A stretch of DNA of 64,000 bases from Bacteroidota bacterium (GTDB lineage Bacteria > Bacteroidota > Bacteroidia > UKL13-3): NCBI GenBank assembly GCA_040388375.1, contig JAZKBU010000004.1:1-64000 (forward strand), in the 5' to 3' direction. This document shows, piece by piece, positions 26,275 through 33,048 of the stretch. A model generated the notes under the pieces. That model was not told where the DNA came from, did not search any database, and worked only from the letters and a program-made list of their open reading frames with translations. The stretch's first letter is position 1. The number at the start of each line of letters is the position of its first letter. Position numbers and translations under genes: made by a program.

Positions 26275-27063
26275 TTATAATAAATAATAAACACCCAGTC
26301 GTAAGCTAATAAGGGTATGCAAAGCAGCTTGCTTTAATATTTCTTTATTTAGATCCTCTTTTTTTAATCCACCATAGTTACTTCCCCCAAACCCTCTTCT
26401 CTCTGCATTATAATCACCCAAAGAAGAACCAGCATAGATAAACCCCGTATTCGCTTCAAAAGACAATGCACCATCTATCAAAATCTTATCAAAAAAAACT
26501 CTCCTTTTTCCAAAACGCATGGTTAAACCTATATCACTAAGCGGATCTAAATCAATGGTTTTACCTTCAATATCAACCATTTTTGGCGATATAGATTCGT
26601 AAGAAAGCCCTATAGCAAAATAATTACCACGAGGTGCTATTGCTTTAGAGGTAACTAAAGACAAGGTAAACTTATTAGAAGTGGTATAAACGTAACTACA
26701 GTCATACAGGCCGAATTCTCTGAACATACTTTCCTCATCGTAATAATCATCTTTTGAAACTAATTTTCCTTCTCCATTTAAATTACTGATAACACCCCAC
26801 TTTTGGAATGAATAATCGAATGAAAGGGTGGTATGTTCGCTTACAACATAGTTTAAATCTATACGGTGTTTTATGTTTAATGCCAGTCCTGTTAAATCGG
26901 TTCCATCGGCTGCTTTAAAATCAAAAATGCTGGCAAAGGGCATTATACTCGGGGCATAGCCAATAGCCAGTCGTTTTCCTAAATAACCGGGCACTTGTGC
27001 ATGGGCATTTACCAAGTACAGTAAAGAACTTACTACTAAAAATATATATCTAAATCGGGTCAT
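26275..27063 (-). CDS. Predicted outer-membrane beta-barrel protein
   Basis: A 262-residue protein with a signal peptide ending NAHAQ (about residue 23). The mature chain has alternating polar and aromatic stretches typical of a small barrel, such as HTTLSFDYSFQKWGV, FTLSLVTSKAIAPRGNYFAIGLSYES and LSFEANTGFIYAGSS, and ends LISLRLGVYYLL with a terminal hydrophobic strand. Its ATG lies 2 bases after the M48 protease stop, so the two are probably cotranslated. No specific family is recognised. Confidence 0.72.
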   Translation of the reverse strand: MTRFRYIFLVVSSLLYLVNAHAQVPGYLGKRLAIGYAPSIMPFASIFDFKAADGTDLTGLALNIKHRIDLNYVVSEHTTLSFDYSFQKWGVISNLNGEGKLVSKDDYYDEESMFREFGLYDCSYVYTTSNKFTLSLVTSKAIAPRGNYFAIGLSYESISPKMVDIEGKTIDLDPLSDIGLTMRFGKRRVFFDKILIDGALSFEANTGFIYAGSSLGDYNAERRGFGGSNYGGLKKEDLNKEILKQAALHTLISLRLGVYYLL

Positions 27064-27065
27064 TA

Positions 27066-29327
27066 TTATTTCAGTTTAATCAGTAAATTATATAATTCAG
27101 AGGTCAGTAAATCTTTGCTGTCTCTCTCCGCACTGTACTTAATATTTCCATATTTAATTTCGCCAGTTTTAACATTATACACGGCTAAAACCAATGCATT
27201 TGAACGTTCTGGTTTGGTTAAATTATAAATGAAAAAAGGTAAATATATTCCGTAAGTAAGTACTGAATAAATGCAACCAAACAATATATCTCCGCCATCT
27301 TTTTTATCAGTAATAGCTAAATCAACAAGCATGGCTACATATTCGGTATTGTGCTTTTCTACAAAATTATGAATGGCTAAATTATCGGTTGCTAAAGGTT
27401 TAAAATCTTCGTTGTTAAAACACTCTATCATTCTCGATTTAATGAGCGTGTATTCATTATAATCATCTGAATTGTTTATTTCGGCAGGAATAATAAAATC
27501 TGCTTCGAGCTTAGCGGCTTCGGTACATTTAACAATGGTATTTTTAAACTCAACTTCTTTTTGCTCTGACTCTATATACCTTGTTGATTGCGTTTTTCGT
27601 TGGTCAATAACCAAATAGTTAGGATCTAAAAAAACCAGTTTCTTAATGCCTAAATTTTTGGTCTTTGTTATTTTTATACTGGCTTTGGTCTTTTCAAAAT
27701 CCGATTCGGTATCCTCATCTTCTTTTGTTTTTTCATCAATTTTATCGGTTACATCTAAAAAATAATCTTTAAAGTCATTGGTCGATAAATAAGGTATCAT
27801 AGTGTATATAGCAAAGGTTCCTTTATGCTTTATTTTATTACCGTATTTACTCTTGTTCTTTTTTGATTTCCACTCGCTTTTATTTTCAACTACCTGTTGC
27901 ACATACCACGATTGTACTAAACTGTCATTATAGTCTTTTTTAAAGTAACTATACTTGGTGCTTATGTTATTGGCAAAGCTGTAAACTATGCTTTTCATAT
28001 AATCGTTATCAGTTGATTTATCTGAAAAGTTATACTTTGTTTTAATATCCCAGGCCATGCGCAAGCATACAACGCTTACTTCTTCTTTGGTCATGTTATA
28101 AAAAGCATAATGCAGTTTTTGAATTTCACCCTGTACTTTATCTGGTTTTGATAAAATGGATTTACGGTAACCCTTATTAACAGCAGTAATAATCTGGTAT
28201 AGACTGCGCAGTTTTGCTTCGGCCAAATATTTACTGTTGGGATTGTCTTTTTCCAACAAGTAAATGGTATATAAATTTTCTATGGGTCTAAAATTTAAAC
28301 TGTATAGCCTGCACAATTCGAACCGGGCTGTTTTTTGTGTTAAATAAAAATCTTTCTCTGAAACCACAAAAAGTAATCCACCCTCTCTTTCATTGTTACC
28401 TAGATTTACTTTATCTAAAGTACGTATACGTTTGGCTATACCGGGGTGTGTGCTATTGGCATCACTTTCTTTGTCACCATCTTCTTCGTCATCGCCTGAC
28501 TCTAAATTATCGTCTTTTATGGTATAATCTTGTGCAGTATCAGGCCAATATACCCTTGGTAACATCATATATGGTCTGCTTATATATGATGATGATAAAA
28601 ACCTGTTTTCAAATGGTTCACCGGCATAGTGTAACATGTCTAAAGCCTTTTTAGGCTCATCCATGTTATACTGTGTTTTGGCATATAGCTTTAAGCCTTC
28701 TGCATCGGCTTCTATTTCCTGCTCTTTGTTATAGCTGTTGCTTGCAAAAATTTTATCGGCATCATCCAAGTCTTCGTACTCATCTATTCCTTTTTGTATT
28801 TTTTTTCTTTCTACAAAAATGTTAAACGAATGGCCTTTGGCATAATGTGATATTTCGTGCGCTAATATAAACGCTAATTGTGCTTCTGATTTAACATGAG
28901 CCAATAAGCCCATATTGATAAATATTTTTCCATCGCTAAAAGCAAAAGCATTTACTGATGGCGATTGTACTACATATACTTTTACTTCGTTACTTAACTT
29001 GGTATTTGATTCTAAAAGTTTATCAACTATTTTATTGATATAATCATTGACAGGTGAATTAAATAAAATTCTTCCCCCGCGCAGTAAATCGGATACAGCA
29101 AAATTCGACTCTAATAAAAACTCTTTTTTGTCTCTTAACTTTACGTTTTTATCGTTCTTACTTTTATGTTCCTGTACGTTTTGTTTGTACTGCTCGCTGG
29201 CAAAGTTGGTATATTCCGCAGGAAGATTTCCTGTATTTTTTATATTCTTATAATTATCAAAATCCTGCGATGTGGCAACTTTTATACTTAATAAAAATAC
29301 GGCTAAAATTTTTATTCTCAATTTCAT
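27066..29327 (-). CDS. Exported M48-family metalloprotease with large C-terminal extension
   Basis: A 753-residue protein: signal peptide to about residue 20, then an M48 peptidase domain with the zinc motif HEISH (157-161) and the third ligand in EIEADAEG (Glu206). An acidic linker (GDDEEDGDKESD near 280) and HPGIAKRIRTLDKV follow, the latter being the usual M48 substrate-side segment. About 430 residues of unrecognised sequence come after, including a Lys-rich block. Near residues 690-730 a short hydrophobic stretch (GGDILFGCIYSVLTYGIYLPFFIYNL) may touch the membrane. BepA-like envelope quality control is possible but the TPRs of BepA are not evident. Confidence 0.82.
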   Translation of the reverse strand: MKLRIKILAVFLLSIKVATSQDFDNYKNIKNTGNLPAEYTNFASEQYKQNVQEHKSKNDKNVKLRDKKEFLLESNFAVSDLLRGGRILFNSPVNDYINKIVDKLLESNTKLSNEVKVYVVQSPSVNAFAFSDGKIFINMGLLAHVKSEAQLAFILAHEISHYAKGHSFNIFVERKKIQKGIDEYEDLDDADKIFASNSYNKEQEIEADAEGLKLYAKTQYNMDEPKKALDMLHYAGEPFENRFLSSSYISRPYMMLPRVYWPDTAQDYTIKDDNLESGDDEEDGDKESDANSTHPGIAKRIRTLDKVNLGNNEREGGLLFVVSEKDFYLTQKTARFELCRLYSLNFRPIENLYTIYLLEKDNPNSKYLAEAKLRSLYQIITAVNKGYRKSILSKPDKVQGEIQKLHYAFYNMTKEEVSVVCLRMAWDIKTKYNFSDKSTDNDYMKSIVYSFANNISTKYSYFKKDYNDSLVQSWYVQQVVENKSEWKSKKNKSKYGNKIKHKGTFAIYTMIPYLSTNDFKDYFLDVTDKIDEKTKEDEDTESDFEKTKASIKITKTKNLGIKKLVFLDPNYLVIDQRKTQSTRYIESEQKEVEFKNTIVKCTEAAKLEADFIIPAEINNSDDYNEYTLIKSRMIECFNNEDFKPLATDNLAIHNFVEKHNTEYVAMLVDLAITDKKDGGDILFGCIYSVLTYGIYLPFFIYNLTKPERSNALVLAVYNVKTGEIKYGNIKYSAERDSKDLLTSELYNLLIKLK

Positions 29328-29351
29328 TCTTAATGTATGCTATAGTTTAAA

Positions 29352-31025
29352 TTAATCGTATAAAGGCAACTCTATTTTGTTAAAATAAAACACGCTGCGT
29401 TTTTTATTTTTACCTTTTTCGTTTTTGTTTTTTATATCTAAACTACCACTTGCTATGTAATAATCATCGTACCAGTATTCTATATCGCTATTGGTATAAG
29501 AAGCTGTTATTTTATCTCCTTTTTTCTCGGTATTACTCATATCTACCTGTTTAAAGTTACGGGTATTATTTTCTTTGTCGAAAGTTTGGGTTTTTAAAAT
29601 ATACCCATCATTGTACACAACGGTATATTCATTATCACCGGTTTCATAAAACTTAAAGCGTTCTTTTAAGAAGAATGTCAACGGGCCGTTCACGTTAAAT
29701 CCGTTATCCCAAAGCAGCTCACCTTCGTTACTAATAGCAAATATCAAAGTGCCTGAATATTGGTAACCTACAAAAACAGTTACTGTTCTGGTTTGCATTC
29801 TTCCATTTACCATTGAAACTTCTGTATGGGTTTCATATTTCGGATAATAGGTTTCTCCAAAAAATACTTTCTCATCTTCTCTTACTATTACATCGTGGAA
29901 AATAACCTGCATGGTAATATTAGCAGCCTTGCCCGTTTTAGCGCTTTTCTTAATGGCTTTATCCTCGGCTCTGGTAGTGGCTACTTTAAAGTTTTTAAAT
30001 TTATTCCAAGGAATTGTTTTAAAGAATTTTTGTTTGTTGTTGGTCATCATTCCCACATAAATTCCCTGGGTAACATTTCCTGTTCCTGTTTTCATACCGG
30101 TAATAGGCCCGTAAGCACCAACTATTACTTTGTTTTCAGCATCTATGTGGTTTAGCTTTCCTTTATATACTTCAATGTTTTGTGGTATTTTAATATTTAC
30201 ATCGGCATTTAGCTTACCGCCTTTAATTGTCCTGATAGATAATTTAGATATTTTCTTGTACTTATGTTTAACAGTAAAGCTTAATTCATCAATACTGTCA
30301 TGTTGATCAATATCTACAATTTCGCCAATTCCTTTTCCATAGTTTTCCATTAAAAACTCTTTCTTGGAACCACTTTTAGTTTTCATATCAACATTTACTA
30401 TATATGGCTTGAAGGTTGGTGTGTAAAAAATAAGTGGTATATAGCATAAGCAAGCTGACAGGCAGGTAACCATTTGTAAGTCGCTTTGTGTCGGGCCTAT
30501 TTTTCCGGCTAAACTAACTACGCCATTTTTAACCAGCATTTGTTTTAAATGCAAGGCTTTATCTAACAAGCCAGGAAATGTTTTTATTTCTTTGGTAGCA
30601 ATGTTTAATTTAACCAACAGGTAATCTTTAAAGTAAGGATCAGTCAAAAATGTATTGCCATGTGAGTTTTTATTATTAGTAAACAAAAAATACAGATTCT
30701 CTCCTTCAAACTGGTAATCTAAAATCTTATAGTCTTTATTTATGGTAATTTTTGTTTTGTAGTCTTCTTCAAACGAAACATCTAATTTTTTAAAGATGAA
30801 ATCTTTCAAACCATTTTTAGCTTTCGATTCCGGCATATAGGCAACGATTAAACCTTGGCTATCAACTGGAATAACTTTAAAGCTTGCTTCCGCATCATCC
30901 ATATTTAGTTCTTTATGAATTTTTATGGCGTCTTTAATGGTTTCTGCTTCCGGAGCTTTGTTTTTTTGGGCAATTACCCCTAAGCAGCTAAAAATTACTA
31001 AACTAAATAGTATTATTTTTTTCAT
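29352..31025 (-). CDS. Large exported protein of unknown function
   Basis: A 557-residue protein with a signal peptide ending GVIAQ (about residue 19). The mature chain is rich in beta-forming and Lys/Asn residues, with segments like NLYFLFTNNKNSHGN and VGYQYSGTLIFAISNEGELLWDNGFNVNG that suggest a beta-propeller or repeat of sensor type. A Cys-containing hydrophobic stretch (VTCLSACLCYIPLIFYTPTF, near residues 185-204) is unusual in an exported protein. It starts 25 bases upstream of the M48 gene and probably heads that operon. No family is recognised. Confidence 0.7.
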   Translation of the reverse strand: MKKIILFSLVIFSCLGVIAQKNKAPEAETIKDAIKIHKELNMDDAEASFKVIPVDSQGLIVAYMPESKAKNGLKDFIFKKLDVSFEEDYKTKITINKDYKILDYQFEGENLYFLFTNNKNSHGNTFLTDPYFKDYLLVKLNIATKEIKTFPGLLDKALHLKQMLVKNGVVSLAGKIGPTQSDLQMVTCLSACLCYIPLIFYTPTFKPYIVNVDMKTKSGSKKEFLMENYGKGIGEIVDIDQHDSIDELSFTVKHKYKKISKLSIRTIKGGKLNADVNIKIPQNIEVYKGKLNHIDAENKVIVGAYGPITGMKTGTGNVTQGIYVGMMTNNKQKFFKTIPWNKFKNFKVATTRAEDKAIKKSAKTGKAANITMQVIFHDVIVREDEKVFFGETYYPKYETHTEVSMVNGRMQTRTVTVFVGYQYSGTLIFAISNEGELLWDNGFNVNGPLTFFLKERFKFYETGDNEYTVVYNDGYILKTQTFDKENNTRNFKQVDMSNTEKKGDKITASYTNSDIEYWYDDYYIASGSLDIKNKNEKGKNKKRSVFYFNKIELPLYD

Positions 31026-31065: not shown

Positions 31066-31428
31066 ATGTTTCCAAACAAATTTGTATTAATTCTGTTATT
31101 GTTTTTCGTTAAACACGGATTCTGTCAATCGGCATTAACACTTGAAAACATTATACAAGTAAAACTGAGTACACAACCTTTAGTAAAACACGTCAATAAA
31201 AAATCTCTTTTATTTCGCTTTTATAAAAATTTAATTTCATCGCAAGATGGTAACTCCTGTGGGTTTTATCCAAGCTGCTCGCAGTTTGCGGCAGAATCTA
31301 TCAGTAAGAAAGGAATTGTTATTGGCACCTTTGCTGCATTTGACAGGTTGAGCAGATGCAATGGACATAACCATGAATTTTACTTGTTTCACCCCACCAC
31401 TCAAAAGCTACTCGATTTAGTTCAGTGA
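31066..31428 (+). CDS. Exported YidD-like protein
   Basis: A 120-residue protein with a YidD domain behind a signal peptide (MFPNKF, hydrophobic core, GFCQ at 18-21). The YidD signatures are FRFYKNLIS (50-58), CGFYPSCSQFAAESISKKG (65-83; C-x-F-x-PSCSxYxxEAixxHG in YidD) and AFDRLSRCNGH (91-101). Cys65, Cys71 and Cys98 align with YidD. Ordinary YidD is a short inner-leaflet protein of about 70-85 residues next to yidC, with no signal peptide. Here the domain would be outside the inner membrane, and yidC, rnpA and rpmH are absent. It overlaps the next gene by 4 bases. Confidence 0.82.
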   Translation: MFPNKFVLILLLFFVKHGFCQSALTLENIIQVKLSTQPLVKHVNKKSLLFRFYKNLISSQDGNSCGFYPSCSQFAAESISKKGIVIGTFAAFDRLSRCNGHNHEFYLFHPTTQKLLDLVQ

Positions 31429-32237
31429 AGTTTGTCATATTTTCATTATTGGTTTTTAGTTGGGGGTTTTCTAAAGCCCAGAATATTTTTGACTATGAGC
31501 ACAACATAACTTACGCTAAATATTTATATGAGCATAAAGACTATAAACAAGTATTGGGAATATTGAATACGTTTGACTCGAATACAAATAATAAAAACGA
31601 AATAGCTATTTGGAAAGTACGGTGTTACTTAAATCTTAAGCAATATACAGAAGCTGATTATACACTTCAATCTATACAAGTAAATGTAAAGCATAAACCG
31701 GAGTATGATTTCTTATTGCTTAAAAATAGTTTATTAAGTAATAATTTCACTAAATATAATAGTTATGTATTTGACAGTACAAATGCCCTCATAGCAGAGT
31801 TGCTTTGTTACCGAGAGTTTTATACCAAAGGAATTGATAGCGCTATTGTTTATACGCAAAAAAACATACACGATACTTTATTAATGCAGTATATGGTTGG
31901 TGTTTTTAGCAAAGCCAAGCCTGCTTACCGTTATAAAAAGCCTTGGCTAGCTGCTACTTTATCCATTGTTCCCGGATTAGGGCAAGTTTATACCCGACAA
32001 TATGCAGACACTTATCTGGGCTTAATTCCTTTTTATTTACATGGTACTATTGCTTACATGGCGTTTTCGCAAGCGGGGATACAAAGTATTTTTGGTTGGT
32101 TAAATACCGCTATGGCTTCGGGCTTTTATATAGGTAATATTTACGGTGCAGCACAATCAGCCAAACGTATTAATCAAATAAATTTTTTAAAAACAAATGA
32201 TGAAATTAAAAAGCGTATTAGTAGCTTGGAGTTTTAG
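31425..32237 (+). CDS. Exported TPR-like protein with PGLGQ membrane segment
   Basis: A 270-residue protein starting with GTG that overlaps the YidD-like stop. A signal peptide ends SKAQ (about 19). Residues 25-150 form TPR-like helix pairs (AKYLYEHKDYKQVLGIL, WKVRCYLNLKQYTEADYTL). Then KKPWLAATLSIVPGLGQVYTRQYADTYLGL (171-200) carries the PGLGQ signature seen in TM2-like and DUF5683-like membrane hairpins, followed by two to three hydrophobic segments and GNIYGAAQSAKRIN. This layout suggests a periplasmic TPR part tethered to the inner membrane. The function is unknown. Confidence 0.78.
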   Translation: MKFVIFSLLVFSWGFSKAQNIFDYEHNITYAKYLYEHKDYKQVLGILNTFDSNTNNKNEIAIWKVRCYLNLKQYTEADYTLQSIQVNVKHKPEYDFLLLKNSLLSNNFTKYNSYVFDSTNALIAELLCYREFYTKGIDSAIVYTQKNIHDTLLMQYMVGVFSKAKPAYRYKKPWLAATLSIVPGLGQVYTRQYADTYLGLIPFYLHGTIAYMAFSQAGIQSIFGWLNTAMASGFYIGNIYGAAQSAKRINQINFLKTNDEIKKRISSLEF

Positions 32238-33048
32238 TTTGTTTTTTTCTTTTTGTTTTGGTCAAACTATTGAGCAAACAAAAACCAAAGCAGATTCATT
32301 ACTAACATCAGGTTTGTATCAGCAGGCGGATGTTTTGTATGACCGTATTATTTTTTTTGCTGACAGTACGCAACAACTACAAGCATTGGAAAAAGGAGCT
32401 GTTTGCAAGGCTGCACTTAATAAATTTGCCGAGGCTGCTCAATATTATAAATTGGCAAGTAAACTCGTATCGGCTGACAGCTTGTACTATAATTTATTAC
32501 TACAACAAGCTTTATGTTTGGTAATGGATGAGCAGTTTGAAACGGCTCAAAAAATATTAACAGAAATACAATTGTTTGAACCTGCTGAGTATTACAAACA
32601 GAAGTCGTTTTTACTCAATGGCATTATAGAAACGCAACAATTAAACTTTTTAACGGCTAAAATTTATTTTGATAGTAGTGCCCATTTAGTACATACCAAT
32701 GATAGCATTCTACTGTACGATTTATTAAATAAAAACTACAAAGCTGTAAGCTTTAACCCTAATGCAGCATCCTTTTACAGTGCTGTTCTACCGGGCTTAG
32801 GCCAATCTGTTCATGGCGATTTTAAAAACGGAATAAACTCATTTGTTATCAATGCTGCTTTAATTACAGCTTTTGTTTATACAGGTATCCAGTATAACTT
32901 TATCAGTTCGTTCTTGTTCTTTTCTGTTTACTGGCCCCGTTTTTATATAGGAGGCATAACAAGCAGCAAGGATATTGCAAACCGCAAACTTAAAGCCATA
33001 CAAAAAGAGTACTTGCGCAGCTATTTAAAAATATACCTGAAGTATTAA
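32197..33048 (+). CDS. Second TPR-like protein with PGLGQ membrane segment
   Basis: A 283-residue protein and distant paralogue of the previous gene. Its ATG lies 41 bases inside that gene, another coupled overlap. The signal peptide ends FCFGQ (about 23), TPR-like pairs fill residues 28-165, and the membrane part begins FYSAVLPGLGQSVHGDFKNG (193-212) with two later hydrophobic segments. It ends in a basic helix (RKLKAIQKEYLRSYLKIYLKY). Together with the YidD-like gene it forms a compact cassette. A start one codon later (32200) is equally possible. Confidence 0.78.
   Translation: MMKLKSVLVAWSFSLFFSFCFGQTIEQTKTKADSLLTSGLYQQADVLYDRIIFFADSTQQLQALEKGAVCKAALNKFAEAAQYYKLASKLVSADSLYYNLLLQQALCLVMDEQFETAQKILTEIQLFEPAEYYKQKSFLLNGIIETQQLNFLTAKIYFDSSAHLVHTNDSILLYDLLNKNYKAVSFNPNAASFYSAVLPGLGQSVHGDFKNGINSFVINAALITAFVYTGIQYNFISSFLFFSVYWPRFYIGGITSSKDIANRKLKAIQKEYLRSYLKIYLKY

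Follow-up and report, generated by a model that had tools for sequence, protein, structure and literature searches.

YidD-domain proteins with an export-like N-terminus (here sYidD) form a near-obligate pair with a second protein, T1, and the two probably act as a stoichiometric complex. Members of the YidD family are thought to help protein insertion into the inner membrane from inside the cell; the canonical YidD is a signal-less small protein encoded beside rnpA, and its role is, to our knowledge, poorly understood. The sYidD described here is encoded in the window, a stretch of 64,000 nucleotides from a Bacteroidota bacterium (contig JAZKBU010000004.1, positions 1 to 64,000), where its gene is followed by those of T1 and of a similar protein, T2 (Table). 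Genomic comparisons revealed the near-obligate pairing, natural gene fusions, the export-like N-terminus and the LolA/LolB-type fold of one modelled upstream protein; from these we infer a physical complex, its site, its cargo and its direction. Together, the results suggest an undescribed envelope machine in several bacterial phyla.

The gene cluster in the window

The window sYidD scores above the curated cut-offs of both YidD models, with 61.5 bits for PF01809 (cut-off 27) and 55.9 bits for TIGR00278 (cut-off 40). The protein contains the C-x5-C pair and a third cysteine, all three invariant in an alignment of 18 family sequences, as well as the PSCSQ motif. The initial annotation, which had described a complete YidD domain with Cys65, Cys71, Cys98 and PSCSQ, is confirmed by both profiles and by this alignment, and the overlaps of 4 and 41 bases that it had reported are exact to the base. 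The 4-base overlap between sYidD and T1 recurs in eight of 18 family loci, with starts set by a hydropathy rule, and the T1/T2 overlaps measure 23–62 bases across the 16 family loci that carry both genes.

Table. Features of the sYidD cluster and its minus-strand neighbours in the window.
Feature	Position	Strand	Evidence or occurrence
Exported protein, 262 aa, no Pfam match	26275..27063	-	14 loci, 8 distinct contigs
M48 metallopeptidase, 753 aa	27066..29327	-	PF01435 E 1.6e-23; 15 loci, 9 distinct contigs
Exported protein, 557 aa, no Pfam match	29352..31025	-	Divergent; beside the cluster type in 13 loci, 7 distinct contigs
sYidD, apparently exported YidD, 120 aa	31066..31428	+	PF01809 and TIGR00278 matches, family alignment
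Predicted signal peptide of sYidD, residues ~1-21	31066..31128	+	Hydropathy, nearly invariant Q21 (18 family sequences)
YidD domain (PF01809) with C65, C71, C98	31207..31368	+	Pfam
Overlap of sYidD stop and T1 start, 4 bases (GTGA)	31425..31428	+	ORF coordinates
T1, exported TPR-like protein with C-terminal PGLGQ domain, 270 aa, GTG start	31425..32237	+	
T1 PGxG domain (PGLGQ...FYIGNIYG)	31935..32234	+	
T1/T2 overlap, 41 bases	32197..32237	+	ORF coordinates
T2, second exported TPR-like protein with PGLGQ domain, 283 aa	32197..33048	+	
T2 PGxG domain	32755..33045	+	

The best 19-residue stretch ahead of the YidD domain in the window protein has a KD value of 1.87, and Q21 stands at the likely cleavage site. 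As first annotated, a hydrophobic, export-like stretch thus precedes the YidD domain, and sYidD is apparently exported, judging from hydropathy and the conserved Q21. Because the N-termini of its partners are signal-like, sYidD would face the periplasm. In the genome comparisons, the exported class comprises YidDs in which at least one run of 10 residues ahead of the YidD core averages KD 1.8 or higher; L126 and L191 were assigned to it manually, and L034, which is a truncated copy of the window, was manually removed. It is quite improbable that the hydrophobic N-terminus is instead an uncleaved anchor, with the YidD domain staying in the cytoplasm as that of an ordinary paralogue. An anchor would agree with the definition of the class by hydropathy alone and with canonical YidD, which also has an N-terminal membrane-seeking helix. 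However, sYidD has the helix of canonical YidD as well, and the hydrophobic stretch is added in front of it; across the family, this stretch ends in a conserved Q where a signal peptide would typically be cleaved, and the overlapping partner genes too start with signal-like stretches.

C65 and C71 are kept in all rows placed by the search pattern, which left two of the 86 exported rows unplaced. At the third position, Cys is found in 82 of the 86 strong exported rows and in 63 of 75 canonical rows, where the pattern missed most of the others and the examples shown have Cys. In 12 of the 13 divergent exported members, and in the two copies from UBA8530, this position is Asp, a swap that would, as a suggestion only, fit a metal site better than a disulphide. 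A Foldseek search with the sYidD model returned nothing credible (best E 3.3), and VIA-align against 15 chains gave a single match, confined to residues 1–36 (Z 3.3). By sequence, one search for YidD among PDB chains found none, and another gave two chance matches at E ~0.6. In a YidD tree of only 81 columns, which carries a long-branch warning, a branch with SH-aLRT 100 sets 14 canonical YidDs on one side, consistent with a single origin of the exported form. Neither type A nor type C clusters form a single group here, and for this reason, together with the few columns and long branches, the history within the family was left uninterpreted.

T1 and T2 each have a hydrophobic N-terminus and the PGLGQ motif, and both match TPR-type Pfam models weakly, below the cut-offs. 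The PGLGQ region had been annotated as a membrane hairpin; the motif is indeed present in both proteins, but the domain is only marginally hydrophobic and its membrane nature is doubtful for T1. The median best 19-mer KD of the PGxG domain is 1.14 over 85 T1 domains and 1.38 over 56 T2 domains, sets that include some second copies of one contig. With such marginal hydrophobicity, T1 might sit in the inner membrane, in the outer membrane or at a membrane surface. Scores for DUF5683 (PF18935) were 15.0 bits for T1 and 17.5 bits for T2, both under the gathering score of 26.7. The T1 and T2 proteins (P0002, P0003) have no Pfam match to TM2 (PF05154), and hhalign of the T1 domain against one TM2 protein gave a probability of ~1%. 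Exported TM2-domain proteins lie convergent to the B-type cassette in L037 (9529–9951), with counterparts in L040, L041, L042 and L049; they share a similar C-terminal ending (about NTKFFMW), and the TM2 Pfam match is shown for L037.

The M48, 262-aa-type and 557-aa-type genes form a conserved set that lies beside the A-type cassette mostly on the opposite strand; in L053, the M48 gene and that of a 253-aa protein share the strand of sYidD. This set (26275–31025) is possibly a functional neighbour of its own, and the 262-aa protein might, at a guess, be an outer-membrane barrel.

Pairing with T-domain proteins across genomes

After removal of duplicate domains, a T1/T2-type domain was found within 3 kb downstream or in the same ORF for 98 of 99 distinct exported YidDs and for none of 75 distinct non-exported ones, as counted with profiles made from the same loci. 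The corresponding Fisher p of 2.7e-49 overstates independence, the loci being related. Most non-exported loci have ~1.5 kb of downstream sequence, which covers the usual T1 distance of ~500–750 bases; one of the 75, L004, has only 214 bases. A further 29 loci, all from one family, gave the same picture, with a T domain in both exported or fused YidDs (2/2) and in none of the 27 others. The sole exported YidD without a detectable downstream T1/T2 domain belongs to L117 (6237 onwards), where the LolA-like gene described below is present. The neighbourhood is therefore conserved far above chance, and the recurrence in other phyla that the initial annotation had mentioned holds in distant genomes, so that its own ground for refutation, a neighbourhood not conserved there, did not materialise.

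The association also holds in reverse. Among 58 genomes of the family, 18 of 19 T1 matches above 200 bits, spread over 18 genomes, adjoin sYidD (in G012 one gene separates the two), and the 19th starts at base 4 of its contig. Eleven matches were weaker: ten are T2 positions, and one (G012:C2, 53.6 bits) lies away from any YidD.

The second partner is more variable. A pair of T domains follows 55 of the 99 exported YidDs, so that the two-partner arrangement first described for the window recurs widely without being universal; among 27 Poribacteria loci, some with less than 3 kb of downstream sequence, only L114 has a second T domain within 3 kb.

Three ORFs of two architectures fuse YidD to a partner domain. 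In L126 (UBA8530), a single ORF of 388 aa starts with YidD and continues with a PGxG domain, a TPR-like stretch and another PGxG domain. The ORFs of L191 and L243 (396 and 398 aa), which come from two genomes of one other family, have a single PGxG domain, preceded by YidD and a TPR-like stretch. As these genes are separate elsewhere, their fusion is good evidence for contact between the YidD and partner products. The stoichiometric complex that had been read from the gene overlaps thus gains support for physical contact, while the complex itself is something we infer. Both L191 and L243 have a lipoprotein-like gene with a hydrophobic Trp/Gly stretch directly before the fusion (981–1448 and 934–1401, respectively), and a PEGA domain is shown in the L191 protein.

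The window's own genome (34 contigs) has three YidD genes: that of the window, a canonical copy next to an rnpA-like gene (C4:101526), and a further exported copy (C6:370561), which is preceded by an rny-like and then a LolA-like gene and followed by T1 and T2; the rnpA and rny labels are read off the sequences. Across the 58 family genomes, this one included, PF01809 gives 19 lower-scoring second YidD copies; besides the window's copy, 17 of the other 18 are exported and followed by T1, in L039 after one intervening gene. The exception, L051 (G052, 2497–2709), is a short non-exported second YidD without T1, and no rnpA-like gene was noticed in the surroundings that were read. Canonical YidD is kept in all 17 family genomes with sYidD, and both forms are present in nine of nine cassette genomes checked; sYidD is therefore an addition and not a replacement. 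Profile A5, made from 35 sYidDs, separates exported (90–165 bits) from canonical (43–68 bits) copies in nine genomes.

A scan of the genome collection with one motif inside sYidD, which draws loci independently of their neighbours, gave 74 loci. By the records' own taxon labels, 27 are from Candidatus Poribacteria, one from Spirochaetes, one from a Rickettsiales-labelled genome and two from one Cyanobacteria MAG; the remaining 43 are Bacteroidota by title. Named isolates with the cassette include Cyclobacterium qasimii, C. roseum and Marinoscillum pacificum. With A5 at E 1e-20 or better, 66 of the 78 Poribacteria-phylum genomes carry sYidD, a count that covers sYidD and not T1 and includes at least three genomes (G068, G069 and G073) known beforehand to carry it. 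sYidD occurs in one of 146 genomes of the Cyanobacteria MAG's phylum (G066); for the phylum of the window, the count is at least 18 of 148. The latter comprise three strong and 15 divergent copies (in G328, a fusion), and the 13 divergent loci that were examined, all except G301:C115 and G250:C52, have T1. L103 contains two tandem cassettes on one contig, both of which come with a separate LolA-like gene and one or more T domains. The cassette of L077, from the MAG labelled Rickettsiales, is nearly identical to that of Marinoscillum pacificum (L072), and the label is probably wrong.

The upstream LolA-like gene and small hydrophobic proteins

Where at least 1 kb of upstream sequence is available, a LolA-like gene precedes sYidD in 65 of 92 exported loci, compared with none of the 75 non-exported ones, again by a profile made from the loci counted. 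It is missing from 27 exported loci, namely the family A and C types, the divergent branch, the L191 fusion, L057, L115 and L128. For the LolA-like protein of the window's own genome, the AlphaFold2 model (pLDDT 92.4) retrieves LolA/LolB structures first in the PDB, with Pseudomonas aeruginosa LolA at the top (Foldseek E 2.5e-11, probability 1.00, TM 0.45–0.50). We therefore assign the upstream family a predicted LolA/LolB-type fold, with one member modelled and the others placed by profile. Identification as LolA from sequence was tried and rejected: hhalign gave a probability of 19%, under the 28% of a T1 control pairing, with a LolA_like profile that held 10 of 15 fetched sequences. Zero of five and zero of two upstream proteins matched a Pfam LolA family above the cut-off (best 14.3 versus 30 bits). 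As both hhalign and Pfam fell short of LolA, the fold model was needed for this assignment.

Within the family, the LolA-like gene is found in six of 58 genomes, each time upstream of sYidD (in the B-type cassettes and G012); it was not found in the window cluster, the divergent branch or UBA8530. This patchy presence marks the gene as cassette-specific but dispensable, and its product is a putative carrier of lipoproteins.

Clustering of 1049 neighbouring ORFs from 92 loci, which include nine second copies of a contig (one of them, L048/L075, by equal length and identical rows), revealed that small hydrophobic proteins of two families, most of them exported, recur in these neighbourhoods. They occur in 30 loci from Bacteroidota and 15 from Poribacteria, and many are encoded immediately before the LolA-like gene. 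Among motif-scan loci with a LolA-like gene, after five without room were dropped, a small exported hydrophobic protein lies within 1.2 kb upstream of this gene in 34 of 54 loci (22 of 29 in Bacteroidota, 12 of 25 in Poribacteria), versus 12 of 175 more distant ORFs, a rough background. Upstream of the cassette, the Poribacteria loci L092–L124 often have several copies of such a small hydrophobic protein, exported or signal-less (25 proteins in 15 loci). By gene proximity only, the small exported hydrophobic proteins and hairpin lipoproteins are candidate cargo. The role in envelope assembly raised by the initial annotation becomes more plausible with the LolA/LolB-fold gene and the small exported proteins upstream; insertion from the periplasmic side is still a guess.

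Possible roles and comparison with known systems

The reading we favour, tentatively and with somewhat less than even confidence, is that the products of the three genes, translated together, make up an obligate complex of the envelope. This complex would take charge of hydrophobic or lipidated cargo from the periplasmic side and often be fed by a carrier. sYidD would keep the YidD core and work on the periplasmic side of the inner membrane; T1 would hold it, probably through the PGxG domain, and T2 would be a paralogous second arm. A dedicated LolA/LolB-fold carrier may feed the complex in many lineages, and the complex would collect such cargo proteins of the envelope from the periplasm and assist their arrival at, or insertion into, a membrane, as a periplasmic counterpart of canonical YidD's supposed service to YidC. 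The missing carrier in the window cluster, the barely hydrophobic PGxG domain of T1, the lone sYidD of L117 and the weak T1 match G012:C2 all count against this reading. A more specific version, in which the LolA-fold carrier hands small exported hairpin proteins to sYidD-T1(-T2) as the receptor for periplasmic insertion independent of SecYEG/YidC lateral release and lipidation, appears rather unlikely.

Other roles were weighed against the same observations. sYidD could be a general inner-membrane insertion factor that aids SecYEG/YidC from the periplasm, the small proteins being incidental: the YidD core is shared, and canonical YidD is reportedly linked to YidC-dependent insertion. We consider this unlikely, as no secY, yidC or rnpA was noticed in the neighbourhoods read or among the recurrent families listed, and sYidD occurs patchily (at least 18 of 148 genomes in the window's phylum, one of 146 in that of G066). 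A LolB-like receptor complex at the outer membrane, to which the LolA-fold carrier would deliver lipoproteins or lipids, is a doubtful alternative. It would suit the LolA/LolB fold of the upstream protein model and the marginal hydrophobicity of T1, which would let T1 avoid the inner membrane, and it has a precedent in the dedicated LolA2/LolB2 paralogues of the flexirubin operon of F. johnsoniae, as reported in PMC11885536. However, the window cluster has no carrier, none was found in family genomes with only A- or C-type cassettes except G012, and no lipobox was seen by eye in the three window proteins.

The patchy occurrence would also suit a mobile or conflict cassette, in which a toxin-like exported YidD is kept with immunity partners. 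Papers on staphylococcal haemolysin genes name yidD, and, read by eye, L050 has a restriction-enzyme-like ORF downstream of the cassette, and L124 a transposase-like ORF at a distance of ~6 kb. Against this stand the 66 of 78 Poribacteria-phylum genomes that carry sYidD and the otherwise stable neighbours, which make such a cassette very improbable.

In the literature searched, which largely excludes subscription journals, we found no description of an exported YidD with T1/T2 partners, and the available parts of PMC12419801, PMC10502375, PMC13066512, PMC11885536 and PMC13103446 contain none. The exported branch, its near-obligate partner, the fusions and the linked carrier define a complex to purify and test, and provide a function lead for a gene carried by most sampled Poribacteria genomes. 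If the favoured reading is true, part of YidD biology would move to the periplasm.

The cluster shares single features with several known systems. DUF5683 proteins, like T1 and T2, have the PGLGQ motif at the start of the C-terminal domain, but the profile match covers only 22–25 columns at 70–88% probability, and the DUF5683 protein of the window's own genome (L033) is shorter and encoded elsewhere. The modelled upstream protein has a fold of the type of LolA and LolB in the Lol pathway; unlike those, the upstream gene is linked to sYidD, and its products fall under the Pfam LolA_like cut-off and go unrecognised by hhalign. The flexirubin LolA2/LolB2 are likewise Lol paralogues inside a cargo-specific operon, and the main text of that paper mentions YidD and TPR zero times each (PMC11885536). 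With YidD itself (PF01809, TIGR00278), sYidD has the domain and the C-x5-C core in common. It differs from canonical YidD in its extra export-like N-terminal residues, in its near-obligate T1 partner and, in the divergent members and UBA8530 copies, in the change of the third Cys to Asp. Instead of the signal-less, rnpA-linked setting of the canonical copy, the window sYidD lies apart from that copy and among other neighbours.
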